Below the pieces are notes generated by a model. The model had not been told where the DNA came from. It searched no databases and saw only the letters and a list, made by a program, of their open reading frames with translations. Made by a program: the position numbers and the translations under genes. From Paraglaciecola hydrolytica (lineage in GTDB: Bacteria > Pseudomonadota > Gammaproteobacteria > Enterobacterales > Alteromonadaceae): a DNA stretch of 57,745 nucleotides. This document shows positions 23,238-34,267 of the stretch, piece after piece (the first letter of the stretch is position 1; each line of letters opens with the position of its first letter). Where the stretch lies: NCBI RefSeq assembly GCF_001565895.1, contig NZ_LSNE01000003.1, positions 508,541-566,285 on the forward strand. The letters run 5' to 3'.

Positions 23238-23263
23238 TGATCCCTTTTCAGTATCGCTACGTA
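23238..23263 (+). promoter_or_regulatory. Putative RpoE-ChrR type ECF promoter upstream of the sigma gene
   Basis: TGATCC (23238-23243) and CGTA (23260-23263, continuing TT) are separated by 16 bases, about 32 bases before the sigma-factor start. TGATCC/CGTA is, as I recall, the recognition pair for the ECF11 (RpoE-ChrR) group. A second site with identical words and spacing occurs at 25588. The rest of the 377-base ratA-sigma gap contains repeat copy C and nothing else I recognise. Confidence 0.75.
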
Positions 23264-23295
23264 TTGCTCATTGACGGACAAGATGGGACTATAAA

Positions 23296-23925
23296 ATGCT
23301 ACACACTAGATTACCAAGATTGATACCTAAAATGCCTGTGCCTTTGGAAACCAAAGCCAAGGAGATAAATCATAGCGAGCTAGCTGCTTGGCTCGAAGCC
23401 ATTGGCTCTCGTCGTGATAAAGTCGCTTTTGCCCAGCTATTTCGATTTTTTGCGCCTAAAATTAAAAACTTTGGTCGGCTACAGTTTAAAAACGAAGCCG
23501 AAGCCATGGAATTAGTCCAAGAAACCATGACCAACGTGTGGCGTAAAGCTCATCTTTATCAAGCCGACAAAGGTGCGCCCACAACGTGGATATACACTGT
23601 CATGCGTAATATGAGCTTTGATATGCTGCGCAAAATCCAGACTTACCGTGAAGAGACGTTGAGTGAAGATATTTGGCCATTGGAACAAACGGCACAACTG
23701 GCCGATGATGAAGATTTTAATGATCATTTGCTGATCCAACATCTCAACACTCACCTTGCGACCTTGCCAGAAAACCAGCAACAAATTGTCATAGGTATTT
23801 ACATCAAACAACTTTCACACGAAGAACTAGCCCAAAAACTTGATCTACCTCTTGGGACCGTTAAATCGCGTTTGCGCTTAGCACTTGCTCGTCTGCGTTT
23901 GCAAATGGGAGAACATAATGATTAA
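23296..23925 (+). CDS. ECF sigma factor, RpoE-ChrR (ECF11) type
   Basis: The product has 209 residues. Sigma region 2 spans about 45-110 (FAQLFRFFAPKIKNFG, AMELVQETMTNVW, TWIYTVMRNMSFDMLR). Region 4 spans about 150-205 (LPENQQQIVIGIYIKQLSHEELA, described by its residues, then PLGTVKSRLRLALARLR). The overlapping partner gene encodes a ChrR-type anti-sigma factor, which places it in the group whose R. sphaeroides member responds to singlet oxygen. It is probably autoregulated through the site at 23238. An in-frame ATG at 23332 is an alternative start. Confidence 0.93.
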   Translation: MLHTRLPRLIPKMPVPLETKAKEINHSELAAWLEAIGSRRDKVAFAQLFRFFAPKIKNFGRLQFKNEAEAMELVQETMTNVWRKAHLYQADKGAPTTWIYTVMRNMSFDMLRKIQTYREETLSEDIWPLEQTAQLADDEDFNDHLLIQHLNTHLATLPENQQQIVIGIYIKQLSHEELAQKLDLPLGTVKSRLRLALARLRLQMGEHND

Positions 23926-24583
23926 ACATCATCCGAGCTTATCTTTGTTAAGCAATTTTTCACAAGGGCAACTGTCCGCATCTTTGTCTATTGCCGTATC
24001 CGCTCACTTAGAACTTTGTAAACAATGTCAGCAGCAAGTCATGCAACAAGAAGAAGTCGCCATGCGTCAGCTATGTGATAGCAATATCATTGAAGATGAC
24101 ATAGATTTTGAGTCAGACAGTGTTTTTGACCTAATGCTCGCTAACATCACTGAGGATGACAGTGAGCTGATACCCAATCACAGCGAAGCACGCCACATCG
24201 AAATCAAGGGGCAGCAGTATGTATTGCCACGCGCCTTACAATCGGTGCGATTATCTAATTGGCTGAAATTCGGAAAATTAGCCCGTGCCAAAGTTGACTT
24301 AAATGAAGGTGAGGTACACGCCAATTTATTACATATAGAGGCTGGTGGTGCCATCCCCCCACATACTCATAAAGGTTTTGAACTGACCTTGCTACTAGCA
24401 GGTAACTTTAGTGATGCCCGTGGGGATTATGTAGCAGGTGACTTTATTTGGTTAAACGGTACACACACCCATAGCCCTGAAACCCAGTTAGGCTGTTTAT
24501 GTTATACCGTAGCCAATGATGCCTTACATTTTACCCAAGGGATAAGCAAAGCGTTAAATCCCATTGGCAAATTGATTTATTAA
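23918..24583 (+). CDS. chrR: ChrR-type zinc anti-sigma factor with cupin domain
   Basis: The product has 221 residues from the ATG at 23918 (GGGAG six bases upstream); it overlaps the sigma stop by eight bases (ATGATTAA). The N-terminal zinc anti-sigma motif is exact: H4-x25-H30-x3-C34-x2-C37. The C-terminal half is a cupin (GGAIPPHTHKGFELTLLLAG; then GDFIWLNGTHTHSPE), as in R. sphaeroides ChrR, where it is needed for release of sigma under singlet oxygen. The intact ligands suggest a functional sensor. It should hold the upstream ECF sigma factor inactive. Confidence 0.93.
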   Translation: MIKHHPSLSLLSNFSQGQLSASLSIAVSAHLELCKQCQQQVMQQEEVAMRQLCDSNIIEDDIDFESDSVFDLMLANITEDDSELIPNHSEARHIEIKGQQYVLPRALQSVRLSNWLKFGKLARAKVDLNEGEVHANLLHIEAGGAIPPHTHKGFELTLLLAGNFSDARGDYVAGDFIWLNGTHTHSPETQLGCLCYTVANDALHFTQGISKALNPIGKLIY

Positions 24584-24586
24584 GTA

Positions 24587-25534
24587 ATGCAGCAACTCCC
24601 AATATTTATTGGCATTAGCGCTTGTTTAACCGGCCAAAAAGTACGTTTTGATGCAGGGCATAAACGCTCAGCGTTTTGCATGGAGCAATTAGAACCTTAT
24701 GTACAATATCGTGCTTTTTGTCCTGAAGTTGCTATTGGTTTACCCACTCCAAGGCCAGCGATACGTCAGGTCAAAGTAGGTGAACGCATTGAGGTGCAAC
24801 AAAATGATGGTACGGGTGATGTGTATGGGGAGCTGCACGATTATGGCAACAAAATAGCAGCACAACAACGTGACTTGAGTGGTTTTATTTTTTGCGCTAA
24901 AAGTCCAAGTTGCGGCACAGAACGGGTCAAGGTTTATCATCAACAAGGTCAACCTGCCGACTATGATGGCATTGGTATTTTTGCTAAAGCCATCATGGAA
25001 AACCAACCTAACTTACCGGTAGAAGACAGTGGACGTTTAATCGATGCCCAGCTGCGGGAAAACTTTGTCTTGCGCGTATTTACCTATAATAAATGGCTAA
25101 ATTTACTCAGTAGTGGCTTAACAAAACACAAATTAATCACCTTTCATAGCCAGCATAAATATTTGCTCATGAGTCATGATCCTGTCGCGTATAAAACCAT
25201 TGGCAAGTTATTAGGTGAATCCAAGCAAGCCTTGGATGAGTTGCAGCAGAGCTATATTTCAATGTTAATGGCGGCGCTTAAAAAAGTCGCCAGTCGTAAA
25301 AATCACGTTAATACCCTCCACCACCTACAAGGTTATTTTCAGCGTAATTTAGATGCTAAACAAAAACGTGAGCTGACCGAAAAAATCCACGATTATCGTT
25401 TGGGATTAAGCCCCTTATTAGTGCCACTTACCTTAATTAACCATTATTTAAGTGAGTTTCCTAATCCCTATCTCGCGTCGCAGGTTTACCTCGCTCCTTA
25501 TCCCAAAGAGTTACCTCTACGTTATAGTTTTTAG
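24587..25534 (+). CDS. DUF523-DUF1722 (YbgA-like) protein, TudS-related
   Basis: The product has 315 residues. The N-terminal DUF523 domain (about 1-150) has conserved cysteines C13 (SACLTG), C45 (FCPE) and C109 (SPSCG), plus C103. The C-terminal DUF1722/YbgA domain is about 165-310. DUF523 proteins include TudS, a [4Fe-4S] thiouracil/thiouridine desulfidase, so a cluster enzyme acting on thiolated bases is plausible here but not shown. It starts three bases after chrR and is surely in the same transcript. In related clusters, as I recall, a photolyase often follows; none is present here. Confidence 0.85.
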   Translation: MQQLPIFIGISACLTGQKVRFDAGHKRSAFCMEQLEPYVQYRAFCPEVAIGLPTPRPAIRQVKVGERIEVQQNDGTGDVYGELHDYGNKIAAQQRDLSGFIFCAKSPSCGTERVKVYHQQGQPADYDGIGIFAKAIMENQPNLPVEDSGRLIDAQLRENFVLRVFTYNKWLNLLSSGLTKHKLITFHSQHKYLLMSHDPVAYKTIGKLLGESKQALDELQQSYISMLMAALKKVASRKNHVNTLHHLQGYFQRNLDAKQKRELTEKIHDYRLGLSPLLVPLTLINHYLSEFPNPYLASQVYLAPYPKELPLRYSF

Positions 25535-25587
25535 CTCAATAGTCACCTAGATTTACCACAAAATTAATAATTTTAGTTAAACCCCAC

Positions 25588-25613
25588 TGATCCAAAAAAA
25601 GTTTAACAACGTA
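25588..25613 (+). promoter_or_regulatory. Second putative RpoE-ChrR type promoter, for the lipid-modification operon
   Basis: TGATCC (25588-25593), 16 bases, then CGTAT (25610-25614) repeats the words and spacing of the site at 23238 with an unrelated spacer. It lies 43 bases upstream of the NTF2-like gene in the only sizeable gap (121 bases) of the cluster. It predicts a sigma-dependent internal promoter for the eight-gene operon that follows. Confidence 0.75.
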
Positions 25614-25655
25614 TCTATACTCATATTGAATAACTGAAAAACGATTAGGTAGTAG

Positions 25656-26093
25656 ATGACGATGCTTAGCTCGCAACACGCACAAAAATTTGTCGAATTA
25701 TACCAAAAATTAGATAAGAACAATCTGGCCTTATTAACCAGCATCTATCATCCAGATATTCAGTTTATTGATCCCCTGCATGAAATAAATGGCTTGGATC
25801 AATTAAAGGCTTATTTTGCCAACCTTTATCAAAACATTGACAGTATCGAATTCGAAATCCACCAGCGTTTTGAAGTCAATAACCATTTGATTTTGTATTG
25901 GCAAATGACCTTTTCTCACCCAAAGCTCAAGAGCGGCAAAAATATTATTGTCGATGGCAACAGCCAAATTGAATTCCATAATGGCTTGGTTACGTTTCAT
26001 CGTGACTATTTTGACACTAACGCCATGCTGTTTGAGCATATCCCCCTACTTGGTAGCCTCATCCGTTACATCAAATCGCGAGTAAACAAATGA
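25656..26093 (+). CDS. NTF2/SnoaL-like protein
   Basis: The product has 145 residues with the NTF2-like pattern: an N-terminal helix (HAQKFVELYQKLDKNNLALL), then YHPDIQFIDPLHEING, and the strand run HLILYWQMTF. Members are diverse small enzymes or binding proteins; this type is regularly seen in RpoE-ChrR gene clusters. No catalytic role can be assigned. The ATG at 25656 has AGGT upstream. Its stop overlaps the SDR start (ATGA). It is the first gene after the internal promoter. Confidence 0.82.
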   Translation: MTMLSSQHAQKFVELYQKLDKNNLALLTSIYHPDIQFIDPLHEINGLDQLKAYFANLYQNIDSIEFEIHQRFEVNNHLILYWQMTFSHPKLKSGKNIIVDGNSQIEFHNGLVTFHRDYFDTNAMLFEHIPLLGSLIRYIKSRVNK

Positions 26094-26815
26094 AATCTGT
26101 TTTAATCACTGGCGCGTCATCGGGTATTGGCAAAGCCTTAGTAGAACACTACGTGGCTGAGGGTTATCAGGTTTATGCGGCTGGCAGAAATGCTCAAAAA
26201 TTGGCGCAAATATTTGATGGACAACCACGTATCACGCAGTTGGTGTTCGACGTAACTCAGTTAGCCCAAATAAAAGCGGCTGCTGAGCAAGTAGACCAGC
26301 TAGAGCACCTCATTTTGAATGCCGGCGATTGTGAATATCTTGACGATGTCATGGCGTTTGATAGTCAACAATTTGCGCGCATTATTCAAGTTAACTTACT
26401 TTCAGTCGGCTATTGCCTTGAGGCATTTTTGCCTAAAGTCATTGGGCTGGGTCGCATTGGCATTGTGAGTTCTAGCGCGACTATATTGCCCTTCCCCAAA
26501 GCTCAAGCCTATGGCGCATCCAAGGCAGGCCTTGATTATCTAGCCCATAGTTTAAGTATCGATCTGGCTCAACATCATATTGGTGTCAGCTTGATCCAGC
26601 CCGGATTTGTTGACACCCCTTTAACCGATAAAAATGATTTTGCCATGCCGTGGCGTATTAGCTCAAAACAGGCAGCAAAGGCTATTTTTAAAGGTATGGA
26701 GGCAGGTAAACACCACATTCGCTTCCCCTTTTTATTGATTTTCTCTTTGCGCTTACTCGCCCTGTTACCCTTTAGTTGGTGGCGCGCTTTAATCACTAGG
26801 AATACCCAAAAATGA
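26090..26815 (+). CDS. Short-chain dehydrogenase/reductase
   Basis: The product has 241 residues. The Rossmann motif TGASSGIG is at residues 7-14, NAG near 78-80, and the catalytic YxxxK at Y141/K145 (AYGASK). After residue 205 it carries a hydrophobic tail (FPFLLIFSLRLLALLPF) that may attach it to the membrane, fitting a lipid substrate. It overlaps both neighbours by four bases (ATGA). Substrate and cofactor preference are unknown. Confidence 0.9.
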   Translation: MKSVLITGASSGIGKALVEHYVAEGYQVYAAGRNAQKLAQIFDGQPRITQLVFDVTQLAQIKAAAEQVDQLEHLILNAGDCEYLDDVMAFDSQQFARIIQVNLLSVGYCLEAFLPKVIGLGRIGIVSSSATILPFPKAQAYGASKAGLDYLAHSLSIDLAQHHIGVSLIQPGFVDTPLTDKNDFAMPWRISSKQAAKAIFKGMEAGKHHIRFPFLLIFSLRLLALLPFSWWRALITRNTQK

Positions 26816-28065
26816 AAAATATTGCGGTAATTGGCTCGGGAATTTCTGGCCTAACAAGCGCCTACTTACTGAGTCAAAAACATCAGGTAACGGTATTTGA
26901 AAAAAATTCAGTTATCGGCGGCCACACGGCCACCATAGATGTATCACTCAATGGCCAACACCATGCGATTGATACGGGATTTATTGTATTTAACGATCGT
27001 ACTTATCCCCGTTTTCTAACGCTATTAGCGCAACTTGGCATTCGCCCACAAAAGACCGAAATGAGCTTTAGTGTTAAAAACCAACAAACGGGTTTGGAAT
27101 ACAATGGCCATACTTTAGCAACTTTGTTTGCGCAAAAACGAAATGTGTTTAATCCGCGTTTTTGGACATTGCTGAGGGAAATTTTACGTTTTAATCGTTT
27201 ATGCAAAGGGCTTTATGCCAGCAATAAAATTCCTGCCCAGCTCACATTGGGCGAGTTTTTGCAGTCGGAAGGGTTTTCAGACTACTTTTGTCAGAACTAT
27301 ATTTTGCCAATGGGAGCGGCGATTTGGTCAACCAGTCTCAACGAAATGCAACAATTTGAACTGGCATTTTTTGTTCGTTTTTTCCATCACCATGGTTTGT
27401 TAAATATTAGCGATAGACCACAGTGGTATGTAGTGCCTGGCGGTTCACGTGAGTATCTCGCGCCGCTGATCAACAACTTTAAAGACAACATCCAACTTAA
27501 TAGTCAGATTAAGTCCGTTACGCGAGCTAATAACTCAGTGCAGTTACATTTTGCCGATGGCAGTGAACAACAATTTGATGAAGTCGTATTTGCCTGTCAT
27601 TCCGATCAAGCCTTGGCTTTGTTAGGTGATGCCAGCGCCGATGAGCACAAGATACTCGGCGCCATGCCTTACCAAATGAACGATGTGGTATTACATACCG
27701 ACACCTCAGTATTGCCTAAACGTAAAGCGGCTTGGGCGAGTTGGAATTATTCTTTAAATGGCGACAGTGATAGCCCTGCCCATGTCACTTACAACATGAA
27801 TATTTTGCAAGGTTTAAACTCAACACAAACCTTTTGTGTGACCCTAAACCAAACACAATCCATTCATCCTGAAAAGATCCTGGGGGCGTTTCAATATGCC
27901 CACCCAGTATTTAATCAAAGTAGTATTTCTGCCCAGCAGCAACGTTTGGCTATTTGTGGTATTGCCCATACTCACTACGTTGGCGCTTATTGGTATAACG
28001 GTTTTCATGAAGATGGTGTACACAGTGCCACCGACGTGGCAAAACGTTTTGGCATCAGTTTATGA
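26812..28065 (+). CDS. FAD-dependent amine-oxidase-family oxidoreductase
   Basis: The product has 417 residues. The dinucleotide-binding motif GSGISG is at residues 8-13, followed by VFEKNSVIGGHTAT (FAD contact) and a conserved TGFIVFNDRTYP segment. It belongs to the flavin amine oxidase superfamily group usually linked to DUF1365 and CFA-synthase-like genes. In R. sphaeroides a flavoprotein of this kind takes part in furan fatty acid synthesis, as I recall, which makes an acyl-chain desaturase role plausible here. It overlaps the SDR and DUF1365 genes by four bases each. Confidence 0.88.
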   Translation: MKNIAVIGSGISGLTSAYLLSQKHQVTVFEKNSVIGGHTATIDVSLNGQHHAIDTGFIVFNDRTYPRFLTLLAQLGIRPQKTEMSFSVKNQQTGLEYNGHTLATLFAQKRNVFNPRFWTLLREILRFNRLCKGLYASNKIPAQLTLGEFLQSEGFSDYFCQNYILPMGAAIWSTSLNEMQQFELAFFVRFFHHHGLLNISDRPQWYVVPGGSREYLAPLINNFKDNIQLNSQIKSVTRANNSVQLHFADGSEQQFDEVVFACHSDQALALLGDASADEHKILGAMPYQMNDVVLHTDTSVLPKRKAAWASWNYSLNGDSDSPAHVTYNMNILQGLNSTQTFCVTLNQTQSIHPEKILGAFQYAHPVFNQSSISAQQQRLAICGIAHTHYVGAYWYNGFHEDGVHSATDVAKRFGISL

Positions 28066-28787
28066 GTCTCAACAGTGCTATCTATTCTGGCCAAGTAAGA
28101 CATCGCCGTTTCAGCGTTGCTGAACATCGTTTTACTTATTCATTATTTATGTTGGCTTTAGATTTAGATGAGCTTGATACCGTGTTAAATCAATCGCGTC
28201 TATTAAGCCGCCGTTGGTTTAGCCCACTGCGTTTTGTTGAGTCTGACTATGTACAAGAACAAGGCACAACTCTTAAAGCCCGTTTGCAAAACAAAGTACA
28301 AAACCTAGAGGGAAACTGGGATGGCAGCAAAGCCATTATGGTTGCTCAATGCCGCTGTTTTGGTTGGTATTTTAGCCCAATTAATTTTTACTTTTGTTAC
28401 CAGCAAAATGGTGAGTGTGTCTACATGCTGGCCGAAGTCAGCAATACTCCGTGGAATCAACGACATTATTATTTAGTTAATTTATTGGCCGAACAAGTCA
28501 GTGATAAAACATTTCATGTATCACCCTTTATGAACATGGACATGCAATACCATTGGCGTATCTCCCCGCCCGACAAACACATGATGGTGCATATTGAAAA
28601 TCGCCGCCAAGAAAAACTGTTTGATGCCACGCTTAGCCTAACTAAACAAACAATTAGCCGCCGACAGTTATGGCTAACCTTACGCAATACCCCGGTAATG
28701 ACGCTAAAAATTGTCGCGGCGATCTATTGGCAGGCACTTAAGCTTTTTCTCAAAAAAGTGCCTTTTATTCCCCATCCACAACGCTGA
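28062..28787 (+). CDS. DUF1365 family protein
   Basis: The product has 241 residues. The opening SAIYSGQVRHRRF..EHRFTYSLFMLALDLDEL and the internal FYFCY..GECVYMLAEVSNTPW (given here in parts) are characteristic of DUF1365, a family of unknown function nearly always found between an FAD oxidoreductase and a CFA-like methyltransferase. It has no signal peptide. It overlaps the FAD gene by four bases and ends eight bases before the methyltransferase. It may assist acyl-chain handling, but that rests on context only. Confidence 0.9.
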   Translation: MSLNSAIYSGQVRHRRFSVAEHRFTYSLFMLALDLDELDTVLNQSRLLSRRWFSPLRFVESDYVQEQGTTLKARLQNKVQNLEGNWDGSKAIMVAQCRCFGWYFSPINFYFCYQQNGECVYMLAEVSNTPWNQRHYYLVNLLAEQVSDKTFHVSPFMNMDMQYHWRISPPDKHMMVHIENRRQEKLFDATLSLTKQTISRRQLWLTLRNTPVMTLKIVAAIYWQALKLFLKKVPFIPHPQR

Positions 28788-28795
28788 GGTCAGCC

Positions 28796-30058
28796 ATGGA
28801 AAATACCCAAAACCTAACATCACCTATTACTTTTTCGTGGTGGACAACAAAATGCCGTAAGGCACTATTTAGCGTACTCAATGATATGCAACAAGCCTAT
28901 ATCGAAATACACGAAGGCAAGGATGTACATTGTTTAGGTAATAGAGAGGCCAAATTAAGTGCACAAATTACGGTACTCGATCCTAGTTTATACAGCGACG
29001 TGATCAAAAATGGCTCCATCGGTGCGGGCGAAGCTTATATCGCCCAAAAATGGAGTAGCCCTGATCTGACGAAGGTCATCCAAGTATTTGCCCGCCAGCA
29101 ACAACAGCTCGATAAACTAGAATCCTCACGACCTTGGTTAAACAAGCTCAAAAACGGGCTGTTTCATTTTCGTAATCGTAACTCACAGCAGGGCTCGAAA
29201 AAGAATATCCTCGCCCATTACGATTTAAGTAATCATCTTTATAGTCAGTTTTTAGATAACACCATGACCTATTCTAGTGCGATTTATACTGACGAAAATT
29301 GCGATCTTGAACAAGCGCAGCAAAACAAGCTAAAGATCATTTGTGAAAAACTTGCCCTGCATAAAGATGATCATTTGATTGAAATTGGCACCGGCTGGGG
29401 AGGTTTAGCCATTTATGCAGCGAGTCACTATGGTTGCAAAGTTACCACCACCACCATTTCGAATGCCCAATATGACTATGCCGTGGAGCAAGTTAATGCA
29501 CGGGGTTTGCAAGAGCGTATCACCCTATTAAAACAAGATTACCGCACCTTGGATGGCCAATACGACAAACTGGTGTCCATCGAAATGATCGAAGCAGTGG
29601 GTCATGAATATCTACCTGAGTTTTTTAAGAAGTGTCATTCGCTGCTAAAAGACTCAGGAAAAATGCTGTTACAAGCCATCACCATTGCCGACAGTCGTTA
29701 TGATCAATACCGCAATAGCGTCGACTTTATTCAGCGCTATATCTTTCCAGGTGGCTGTTTACCTTCTGTTAGTGTAATGGCCCACCATATCGCCCAACAA
29801 AGCGACATGGTGGTTGAGTCCGTCACAGATATTGGCTTGCACTATGCACGTACCCTGCACGATTGGCGCGAGGCCTTTCATCGCAATTGGCCCAACCTCA
29901 ACAAAGAACACTTTGACCAACAATTTAAACGTTTGTGGGATTTTTATTTATGTTACTGCGAAGGCGCATTTATTGAGCGCGTGATCAGCACCCATCATGT
30001 GGTCGCCCGTAAACCCCAATATCTAGGTCAAGACGATGCGCGCATTTTGGCTTATTAA
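28796..30058 (+). CDS. CFA-synthase-family fatty acyl phospholipid methyltransferase
   Basis: The product has 420 residues. It aligns with E. coli cyclopropane fatty acid synthase over HYDLSNHLY, the SAM-binding EIGTGWGG (residues 196-203), QDYRTLDGQYD and YIFPGGCLPS. Two residues that hold bicarbonate in classical CFA synthase differ: the C139 equivalent is S161 (YSSAIY) and the H266 equivalent is Q293 (LLQAI). The E239 and Y317 equivalents remain as E266 and Y350. It may therefore methylate or methylenate an unsaturated acyl chain without cyclopropane closure, as in furan or methyl-branched fatty acid pathways. Calling it cfa would be premature. Confidence 0.9.
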   Translation: MENTQNLTSPITFSWWTTKCRKALFSVLNDMQQAYIEIHEGKDVHCLGNREAKLSAQITVLDPSLYSDVIKNGSIGAGEAYIAQKWSSPDLTKVIQVFARQQQQLDKLESSRPWLNKLKNGLFHFRNRNSQQGSKKNILAHYDLSNHLYSQFLDNTMTYSSAIYTDENCDLEQAQQNKLKIICEKLALHKDDHLIEIGTGWGGLAIYAASHYGCKVTTTTISNAQYDYAVEQVNARGLQERITLLKQDYRTLDGQYDKLVSIEMIEAVGHEYLPEFFKKCHSLLKDSGKMLLQAITIADSRYDQYRNSVDFIQRYIFPGGCLPSVSVMAHHIAQQSDMVVESVTDIGLHYARTLHDWREAFHRNWPNLNKEHFDQQFKRLWDFYLCYCEGAFIERVISTHHVVARKPQYLGQDDARILAY

Positions 30059-30554
30059 TGCCGTATTGTTTCAGCTTGGTTGGTTTGGCGCTTTACTGCT
30101 AAACCAGCATGCTGTTGCCATACTGAGCATCACCCTAGTTTTGCATTTTTTCCTTTCACCAAGCAAAAAAGCTGACGCCTTAATCCTGCTGTTGGCACCT
30201 ATTGGTTGGCTAATGGACTACAGTTTATTTCAGTTCAATGTTTTGGGAGCTGGATCCGCAGGATTTCCCATTTGGTTGTTGCTGTTGTGGCTAATGTTTG
30301 TGGTTAGCCTAAACCACAGCCTTAAGTGGTTGAGTCAAATATCGTTATTTGGGGTAGGTCTACTGGGTATGATACTGGGTCCCCTCAGTTACTTAAGTGC
30401 CATCAAAGTCGGTGTATTAAACTCATCTTTAACATCGACCTTTTTTGTTTTGCTTGCTGCCGCACTGTGGGCTTTATTGCTACCAAGCCTAGTTAAACTT
30501 CGTTACTTGCTGCTTGGCTACTTTACGATCCAACAGATAGGTACAAAGGCATGA
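30036..30554 (+). CDS. DUF2878 family membrane protein
   Basis: The product has 172 residues with about five hydrophobic helices (AVLFQLGWFGALLL; AVAILSITLVLHFFL; ALILLLAPIGWLMD; WLLLLWLMFVVSL; a C-terminal pair). The motif FxxxGWFGALL with a conserved Asp after the third helix fits DUF2878, a family of unknown function common in this cluster type. It overlaps the end of the methyltransferase gene by 23 bases, in a different frame, and ends with an ATGA overlap into the next gene. Confidence 0.82.
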   Translation: MRAFWLINAVLFQLGWFGALLLNQHAVAILSITLVLHFFLSPSKKADALILLLAPIGWLMDYSLFQFNVLGAGSAGFPIWLLLLWLMFVVSLNHSLKWLSQISLFGVGLLGMILGPLSYLSAIKVGVLNSSLTSTFFVLLAAALWALLLPSLVKLRYLLLGYFTIQQIGTKA

Positions 30555-31042
30555 AAATCTTTTTATTAGCCTGCTGTTTTAGCGTCAGTGTTATGGCCTC
30601 CCCGTTGAGTGAACTACACAAGTCTGGCTCAGGAGAGATGCGTTACTTGTGGTGGAACTTATATCAAGCTGAGTTGTACCTAACACAACTTCCTTATCAA
30701 AAAAATCAATGGCCACAGGCACTCAAACTCACCTATCAACGGGACATTGACAAAGATGACTTAATCGAGGCCACTGCAGATCAATGGCAACACATTAAAC
30801 TCAATGATCCACAACAAGAGGCATGGCTCATCCAATTGGCCAGCATTTGGCCCGAACTCAAAAAAGGTGACGAACTGATTTTGTTAATCAAAGAAGATGG
30901 GCTGAGTTATTTTTATTTTAATCAGCAACTCGTTGGCACTATCACACAAGCGGATTTTGGCCCTGCATTTTTAGCCATATGGCTGGACGAAAACACGTCA
31001 GAACCCAAACTCAGACAAAAACTGTTAGGAGTAAACCCATGA
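30551..31042 (+). CDS. Chalcone-isomerase-like periplasmic protein
   Basis: The product has 163 residues. The N-terminal signal peptide (MKIFLLACCFSVSVMA, cleavage before SPL) predicts export. The remainder has the bacterial chalcone-isomerase-like pattern (SGSGEMRYLWWNLYQAELY; LTYQRDIDKDDL), a fold that in eukaryotic relatives binds fatty acids. Enzymatic isomerase activity is not implied. It overlaps the preceding and following genes by four bases each, keeping it in the lipid operon. Confidence 0.8.
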   Translation: MKIFLLACCFSVSVMASPLSELHKSGSGEMRYLWWNLYQAELYLTQLPYQKNQWPQALKLTYQRDIDKDDLIEATADQWQHIKLNDPQQEAWLIQLASIWPELKKGDELILLIKEDGLSYFYFNQQLVGTITQADFGPAFLAIWLDENTSEPKLRQKLLGVNP

Positions 31043-31560
31043 GGATTTTATTAATCGGTTGTTTCATATTTTTAGCCGGCTGTTCATCTCCCCACTTAGA
31101 CGACTATAAAACCACTACACCGGCGTTAAATTTAGAGCAGTTTTTTGATGGCGAGCTCACTGCCCAAGGCATGGTGCTTGACTATAACGGCAAAATGACC
31201 CGCCGCTTTACCGTCGAAATCCAAGCCAATTGGCAAGATAACCTTGGTACCTTAGACGAGCAGTTTATCTACGATGATGGCGAGCGCAGTGAACGTAAAT
31301 GGCAAATTCAGCGCCATGCAGATGGAACTTATAGCGGCACAGCCAATGATGTCATAGGTACAGCCAAAGGCGCCTCTTCTGGAGCTGCTTTTTATTGGCG
31401 CTATCAATTAACCATCGAAATGGACGACGGCCCTATCGACGTTACGCTAGATGATTGGATGTATTTAATTGATGAGCACCACCTACTGAATAAATCGGAC
31501 ATTATTAAATACGGTCTAAAAGTAGGTGAAGTGGTATTAATGATTAAAAAACAACCGTAA
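31039..31560 (+). CDS. DUF3833 family lipoprotein
   Basis: The product has 173 residues from the ATG at 31039 (ATGA overlap with the preceding stop). The lipobox LAGC has C15 as the lipidated residue, followed by Ser-Ser, which favours outer-membrane sorting. The mature part is rich in beta strands (RRFTVEIQANWQDNLGTLDE; WRYQLTIEMDD), typical of DUF3833. Function is unknown. It is the last gene of the operon; I see no clear terminator before smpB. Confidence 0.85.
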   Translation: MRILLIGCFIFLAGCSSPHLDDYKTTTPALNLEQFFDGELTAQGMVLDYNGKMTRRFTVEIQANWQDNLGTLDEQFIYDDGERSERKWQIQRHADGTYSGTANDVIGTAKGASSGAAFYWRYQLTIEMDDGPIDVTLDDWMYLIDEHHLLNKSDIIKYGLKVGEVVLMIKKQP

Positions 31561-33505: not shown

Positions 33506-34267
33506 ATGTTTAAACACGCCATTGTGCGTAAACCCTGTAAAGCCATGGTAAAAGGATTAACAGCAGCAAAATTAGGTACACCAGACTACGCGTTAGCATT
33601 ACAACAACATCAAGACTATATTGTTGCGCTCAGAGAATGTGGTTTGCAGGTAACCGAACTAGCCCCCCTAGAAGATTATCCTGATTCTTGTTTTGTCGAA
33701 GACGTTGCCTTAATAACGCCCCAAGGTGCAATTTTAACTCACCCAGGTGCCCCCAGTCGGCGTGGCGAAGTGGATTTTATCGAAGCCGCAATCAAACAGT
33801 TTTTCCCCTATCCAGACTATATTGACGCGCCAGGCCATGTGGAAGCAGGTGATATTATGATGGTTGGCGGGCATTTTTATATTGGCTTATCAGCACGCAC
33901 TAATCGCCAAGGCGCAGAACAAATGATTAGTATTTTAAGCAAACACGGTTTATCCGGCTCAGTGGTGAAGATGTCTGACCTGCTGCACCTCAAAACAGGC
34001 TTAAGTTATTTAGAAAACAATAACTTACTGACCTTTGGTGAAATGCATCACCACCCTGATTTTAGTGATTATCATCGCATCGAAATTAGTGCAGAAGAAA
34101 GCTACGCCGCCAACAGTGTATGGATCAATGGCACAGTATTGGTACCCAAAGGCTTCCCGCTTGCATTAGCAGCGATCCAAGCCTTAGGTTACCAAACCCG
34201 TGAAGTAGCCATGAGCGAATTCCAAAAACTCGACGGCGGTTTAAGTTGTTTGTCACTGCGTTTTTAA
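33506..34267 (+). CDS. ddaH: N(G),N(G)-dimethylarginine dimethylaminohydrolase
   Basis: The product has 253 residues, almost the length of the Pseudomonas aeruginosa enzyme and very similar along it. It hydrolyses asymmetric dimethyl- or monomethyl-arginine to citrulline and an amine. The catalytic nucleophile is C248 in GGLSCLSLRF, the His is H161 in LLHLKTGLSYL, and the substrate-binding VEAGDIMMVG segment is intact. It is likely in one operon with the permease upstream, suggesting uptake and use of methylated arginines as a nitrogen source. Confidence 0.93.
   Translation: MFKHAIVRKPCKAMVKGLTAAKLGTPDYALALQQHQDYIVALRECGLQVTELAPLEDYPDSCFVEDVALITPQGAILTHPGAPSRRGEVDFIEAAIKQFFPYPDYIDAPGHVEAGDIMMVGGHFYIGLSARTNRQGAEQMISILSKHGLSGSVVKMSDLLHLKTGLSYLENNNLLTFGEMHHHPDFSDYHRIEISAEESYAANSVWINGTVLVPKGFPLALAAIQALGYQTREVAMSEFQKLDGGLSCLSLRF

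Follow-up and report, generated by a model that had tools for sequence, protein, structure and literature searches.

The window, that is, the whole stretch of 57,745 nucleotides that was analysed, contains on its forward strand an ECF sigma factor gene, a chrR anti-sigma gene and a run of further genes, with two copies of one promoter-like word between them. In order along the strand, the features of this cluster are as follows.

23238..23264, + strand: P1, predicted ECF11-type promoter before the sigma gene (-35 TGATCC at 23238-23243, 16-base spacer, -10 CGTAT at 23260-23264)
23296..23925, + strand: ECF sigma factor gene (ECF11 / RpoE2 type), 209 aa, with Sigma70_r2 and r4
23918..24583, + strand: chrR anti-sigma gene (TIGR02451), overlapping the sigma stop by ATGATTAA
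24587..25534, + strand: gene of a DUF523 (2-thiouracil desulfurase)-DUF1722 protein (YbgA type), 3 bases past chrR
25588..25614, + strand: P2, predicted ECF11-type promoter before the NTF2-like gene (-35 TGATCC, 16-base spacer, -10 CGTAT)
25656..26093, + strand: NTF2/SnoaL-like protein, first gene of the second operon (SnoaL_2, E 3e-15)
26090..26815, + strand: short-chain dehydrogenase, SDR (adh_short, E 4e-38)
26812..28065, + strand: FAD amine-oxidase-type protein, UfaD-like by position (Amino_oxidase, E 1e-20)
28062..28787, + strand: DUF1365 protein, the domain of UfaO (DUF1365, E 3e-78)
28796..30058, + strand: CMAS-type SAM methyltransferase, UfaM-like candidate (CMAS, E 7e-84)
30036..30554, + strand: DUF2878 protein (domain match)
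30551..31042, + strand: chalcone-isomerase-like protein (domain match)
31039..31560, + strand: DUF3833 protein, last gene of the second operon (DUF3833, E 3e-67)

The best solved relative of the sigma protein is RpoE of Rhodobacter sphaeroides (2q1z_A, E 8e-32), and the nearest solved protein to ChrR is ChrR of the same species (2z2s_B, E 8e-18). ChrR matches TIGR02451 with 184.6 bits, above the cut-off of 124.5, and in its alignment with 2z2s_B, read by eye, all eight zinc ligands are identical; these comprise His, His, Cys and Cys in the zinc anti-sigma domain and His, His, Glu and His in the cupin domain, as described for the R. sphaeroides protein (PMC6852236). Thus, the pair has the hallmarks of the ECF11 sigma/ChrR type, namely sigma regions 2 and 4, a ChrR with zinc and cupin domains, and TGATC/CGTA words before the sigma gene. 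The DUF523-DUF1722 gene probably belongs to the first (P1) transcript; 44 of the 60 surveyed clusters have it after chrR.

Each gene of the second operon overlaps or almost touches its neighbour. The CMAS protein scores 290.6 bits against the standard Cfa model NF008686, under the 400-bit cut-off, and no match of at least 400 bits was found in the five genomes searched, including that of the window. UfaD is an FAD protein. The furan-fatty-acid genes of Rhodopseudomonas palustris are given as RPA2571 (UfaD), RPA2570 (UfaO, a DUF1365 protein) and RPA2569 (UfaM, a SAM methylase) (PMC7380195), and the FAD-DUF1365-CMAS run in the window has this same D-O-M order. The original prediction spoke of an envelope-lipid operon; domains and gene order sharpen this to a candidate furan-fatty-acid operon.

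The word TGATCC-N16-CGTAT is present in the window in exactly two copies, P1 and P2, confirming the earlier claim of identical words at identical spacing. Across 100 dinucleotide shuffles of the window it occurs 0.01 times on average, with no shuffle containing it twice, a figure that is flattering since the word was picked after both sites had been compared, although the same word has been published independently for the same sigma family. P1 ends 31 bases before the sigma ATG (23296), in a gap of 377 bases, and P2 ends 41 bases before the NTF2-like ATG (25656), in a gap of 121 bases, so that both sites do lie within gaps, and their spacers are indeed unrelated when compared. The base after CGTAT is T at P1 and C at P2. 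TGATCC itself is common, with 37 copies in the window against 17 expected from dinucleotides, approximately twofold. Other copies had been said to lack CGTA downstream, which is correct for a 16-base spacing; with spacings of 14-18 bases, three copies in the window, P1 and P2 among them, are followed by CGTA, and the remaining one starts at 34127 (- strand), with a 15-base spacer, antisense within the ORF 33506-34267. A pattern scan listed no terminator-like element in the gap 25535-25655 that holds P2, and P1 transcripts may therefore run on into the lipid operon.

In Shewanella oneidensis, TGATCC and CGTATT are found upstream of rpoE2-chrR, with a mapped transcription start, and similar words precede the ybgA operon (which contains phrB and cfa), a phr-related gene, and pgpD, for which a start was mapped as well (PMC4336711). 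The promoter word reported for Vibrio cholerae is TGATC-N16-18-CGTAW (PMC5241685). Since both of these words are published, the motif of the original prediction is, judged by its sequence, the already known ECF11 promoter.

Conservation was assessed with a matrix built from eleven sigma-upstream sites, taking a score of 13 or more as the threshold. The 60 clusters surveyed are the window, 43 loci from GTDB genomes (mainly Colwellia, Psychromonas, Pseudoalteromonas, Shewanella and Paraglaciecola) and 20 loci of relatives, minus four duplicates (L059, L062, L063 and L065) dropped before counting; some loci are cut at the ends of contigs or of the fetched stretches, and a gene absent from a layout may reflect an absent stretch. 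A sigma-upstream site reaches the threshold in 56 of the 60 clusters, and in 46 of 49 with the training loci excluded, compared to 43 of 2900 shuffled stretches and 8 of 145 taken from the reverse strand. Four clusters have no scoring site before sigma. TGATCC is too strict as a required word, since relatives differ in the sixth base of the -35 element and have spacers of 15 or 16 bases, and the close relative G013 has CGTATT before its sigma gene with no recognisable -35 element found. P1, which is within the training set, scores 19.9; P2, which is outside it, scores lower, 16.2, its -10 element running CGTATC and not CGTATT. Loci of same-genus relatives (L069-L074) carry a separate ChrR/sigma lineage, in which ChrR is 36-42% identical, the lipid genes are divergent from sigma, and the sigma promoter reads TGATCY-N16-[AT]GTAT, with the first base of the -10 element changed. 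The cluster L066 of genome G003, which is grouped with the genus of the window, falls among Colwellia clusters in the tree, a placement that hints at transfer between families.

The arrangement of the genes differs among the clusters, and the second promoter differs with it. The layout found in 32 of the 60 begins with DUF2878-chalcone-DUF3833, followed by sigma-chrR-DUF523/1722-photolyase-NTF2-SDR-FAD-DUF1365-CMAS; within it, a site is present before sigma in 32/32, before NTF2 in 1/32, and before DUF2878 in 22/32. The last position never has a site (0/9) when DUF2878 comes after CMAS. Considering all 53 clusters in which NTF2 is present, the NTF2-upstream site is found in both cases where this gene follows DUF523-DUF1722 and in all four where it follows chrR (6/6 together), in 2 of the 41 that have a photolyase gene just before it, and in 4 of 6 where the lipid operon is divergent from sigma. 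Fisher's test of 6/6 against 2/41 gives 2.6e-6, with kinship ignored. On the tree, only three independent pairs of clusters with different layouts can be formed on supported branches; averaged over 200 pairings, 2.6 of the three show the expected change in the site, and none ever shows the opposite. As a sign test with three pairs is too small to reach significance, the idea that the operon acquires a promoter at the point where it is split is suggestive. Two sister Shewanella loci fit this rule, L300 having the site and no photolyase gene, and L308 the photolyase gene and no site. By eye, the seven NTF2-upstream sequences compared resemble one another in the two hexamers. In L062-L064, TGATCC..CGTA words upstream of NTF2 were left uncounted: they fall inside photolyase genes, where a conserved Asp-Pro-x-Gly-x-Phe-Ile-Arg stretch appears to spell them, and such promoter-like words are a trap for motif scans of the ECF11 regulon.

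In the genome as a whole, the exact word occurs three times among the matches listed, against about 2.5 expected from composition; all three listed copies lie outside called ORFs and upstream of one, the third preceding an MlaA-type lipoprotein gene. The loose form TGATCC-N14-18-CGTA, at 28 matches against 24 for the reversed control, scarcely stands out. TGATCN16-17CGTAW has 45 matches against 21 in the control, 38 of them inside ORFs; six have a downstream ORF within 300 bases, these being the sigma, NTF2-like, photolyase, MlaA-type, MipA-type and old-yellow-enzyme genes. TGATCN17CGTAW is rarer than its control in G004, G010 and G013 taken together (46 vs 58). TGATCN17CGTATT occurs four times in the genome of the window against one in the control, and 97 against 64 times across 31 genomes; two of the four own matches are inside ORFs, one of them a Fur-family gene by reading (L097).

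The only photolyase gene detected in the genome of the window lies on another contig (G000:C2:335027). The site TGATCT-N16-CGTATT precedes it (G000:C2:334948-334975), 51 bases before the aligned start. Sixteen genomes were searched for photolyases, and among the 12 best matches located away from the cluster, eight have a site scoring at least 13, two fall short with about 12, and the remaining two lack a site; where the best photolyase gene is inside the sigma operon (G022, G033 and G038), none of the three has a site. Three further secondary matches all score below 13. Overall, 24 of the 33 matches were examined and nine of these reach the threshold, six matches whose alignment starts at a later residue (the best one of G023 among them) and three with no locus having been left out. 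The photolyases of G004, G010 and G013 share only 37-38% identity with the one encoded in the genome of the window, and so rather different photolyases are preceded by the same kind of promoter. The promoter word is thus carried both by the candidate genes of the furan-fatty-acid/cfa type, at P2, and by the gene of a photolyase, a light-driven DNA repair enzyme; this gene appears to be on the same sigma circuit. The two-transcript regulon originally proposed is therefore too narrow, this kind of site being shared with photolyase genes in relatives; the predicted regulon has at least three transcripts, and further candidates exist.

One of these candidates is a long gene for a second MlaA-type lipoprotein, with an MMPL-family gene behind it (L178:1501-3982; G000:C3:1044226 onward). 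It is distinct from the MlaA-family gene at G000:C7:129722 and has TGATCC-N16-CGTAT upstream. A site scoring at least 13 is present in two of seven orthologues, that of the window's genome and that of G004 (one of six relatives); a third orthologue scores 10.8 at the same distance as in G004, and the closest relative (67%) has no site. This operon is suggestive only as a regulon target, and the word before it may be due to chance, because two or three of the six hits that have an ORF downstream are of uncertain worth. Our literature search found no paper joining MlaA with ChrR. If the MlaA-type target holds, the response extends to outer-membrane lipids. We can speculate, tentatively, that the singlet-oxygen sigma factor of a Paraglaciecola-type lineage has lipid traffic at the outer membrane under its control too, and that regulon genes leaving the operon keep or gain a promoter of their own; damaged envelope lipids could then be cleared while furan fatty acids are made.

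Other genes examined give a mixed picture. A MipA-type gene has an N15 site upstream in the genome of the window. The site before the old yellow enzyme gene reaches the threshold in 1 of 16 upstream regions, is absent in a relative that is 82% identical, and is probably due to chance. The gene rpoH, considered as a cascade target, has sites scoring at least 13 in 5 of 17 upstream regions, at scattered distances, and was rejected for the genome of the window, where its score is 6.3. In several relatives (L198-L205), a flavin-reductase-like gene has an ECF11-type site 36-51 bases upstream; four of eight relatives reach the threshold, and a further two come to 11-12 at about the same distance. 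This gene has no close relative in the genome of the window, with 26% identity for the best match.

Taken at the level of sequences, positions, conservation and ligand residues, all observed directly here, P1 and P2 are very probably the -35 and -10 elements of promoters read by the ChrR-released ECF11 sigma factor of 23296, which would read at least one unlinked photolyase promoter as well. ChrR loss, sigma dependence, the transcription starts and the lipid product we infer from relatives. In R. sphaeroides, singlet oxygen causes turnover of ChrR, and the freed sigma factor reads its promoters; the furan-fatty-acid genes are in turn required for ChrR turnover, creating a feedback loop (PMC6852236). 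By analogy, ChrR would hold the sigma factor in the unstressed cell and would be lost upon exposure to singlet oxygen or organic peroxides. The freed sigma factor would then fire P1, and transcription of sigma-chrR-DUF523/DUF1722 would close a loop that amplifies itself and at the same time restores the brake. It would also fire P2, which serves the operon running from NTF2 to DUF3833 and so the candidate furan-fatty-acid enzymes, and no fewer than one unlinked promoter, that before the photolyase gene. P2 would make transcription of the lipid operon independent of read-through from P1.

That a single sigma factor drives its own gene as well as the lipid operon is the most plausible interpretation, because both sites fit ECF11 promoters in sequence, place and conservation, even though the regulon is larger than the two transcripts originally envisaged. 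P1 might instead be the only working promoter, with the lipid operon reached by read-through and the second word a remnant or a chance match. The gap with no listed terminator would permit this, and read-through seems enough in the 39 of 41 photolyase-before-NTF2 clusters that have no second site at the threshold; nevertheless, this arrangement is improbable for the window, as the second site recurs in G004, G010, G013, G003 and a Shewanella, in surroundings that differ by eye, and as P2 scores 16.2, where only 43 of 2900 shuffled stretches attain even 13.

Reading of the sites by another ECF sigma factor, for example an RseA-partnered RpoE, or by several, is less probable still. In its favour, five ECF-like sigma factors are reported in S. 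oneidensis, but the Shewanella RpoE motif, GAACTT..TCTACA, is unlike TGATCC/CGTAT (PMC4336711), and it is the ECF11 gene that the words precede in 56 of 60 clusters. The abundance of TGATCC in the window, the small excess of the loose form over its reversed control, and the exact word being about as frequent in the genome as composition predicts would all agree with chance resemblance at both sites. Such a coincidence is nonetheless extremely improbable for an exact word that occurs twice in 58 kb, in promoter position beside a sigma gene of the matching family, and is conserved there.

With the ECF11 sigma factor as the predicted reader of both sites, a marine genus is placed in the singlet-oxygen response, with a testable regulon; to our knowledge, Paraglaciecola is non-phototrophic. 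In neighbouring families the same genes are arranged in a single operon, under two promoters, or in divergent operons, and comparing these layouts is a natural way to study how a sigma factor and its brake become linked to their effectors or separated from them.

Compared with known systems, the control circuit would be of a known kind, and what is new is a member with a variant operon layout. S. oneidensis RpoE2-ChrR shares the promoter words, autoregulation (with a mapped start there), the sigma/chrR overlap of ATGATTAA, and, among its targets, an operon given as ybgA together with phrB and cfa. It differs in that ybgA-phrB-cfa (SO_3386 on) lies apart from rpoE2-chrR (SO_1986-1985), with the promoter before ybgA (PMC4336711), whereas in the window DUF523-DUF1722 adjoins chrR, the photolyase gene is unlinked, and the second promoter precedes NTF2. 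R. sphaeroides sigmaE-ChrR, which provides the nearest PDB relatives of both proteins, has a core regulon of about eight genes, including rpoE-chrR and the furan-fatty-acid genes (PMC6852236). Its ufaM (RSP2144) is located apart from RSP1087-1091 (PMC7380195), unlike the window, where the three Ufa candidates are adjacent, as described for R. palustris. V. cholerae ChrR/SigE resembles the window in its word TGATC-N16-18-CGTAW and in having a CFA-synthase-type gene and photolyase/cryptochrome operons that are induced by blue light; its 159 dependent genes come from RNA-seq (PMC5241685), while here promoter words alone were counted. Finally, the Colwellia/Psychromonas type of cluster has the same genes and the same sigma promoter, but its photolyase gene is inside the operon, with an NTF2 site in 1 of 32, and its DUF2878-chalcone-DUF3833 genes are upstream of sigma, with a site of their own in 22 of 32.
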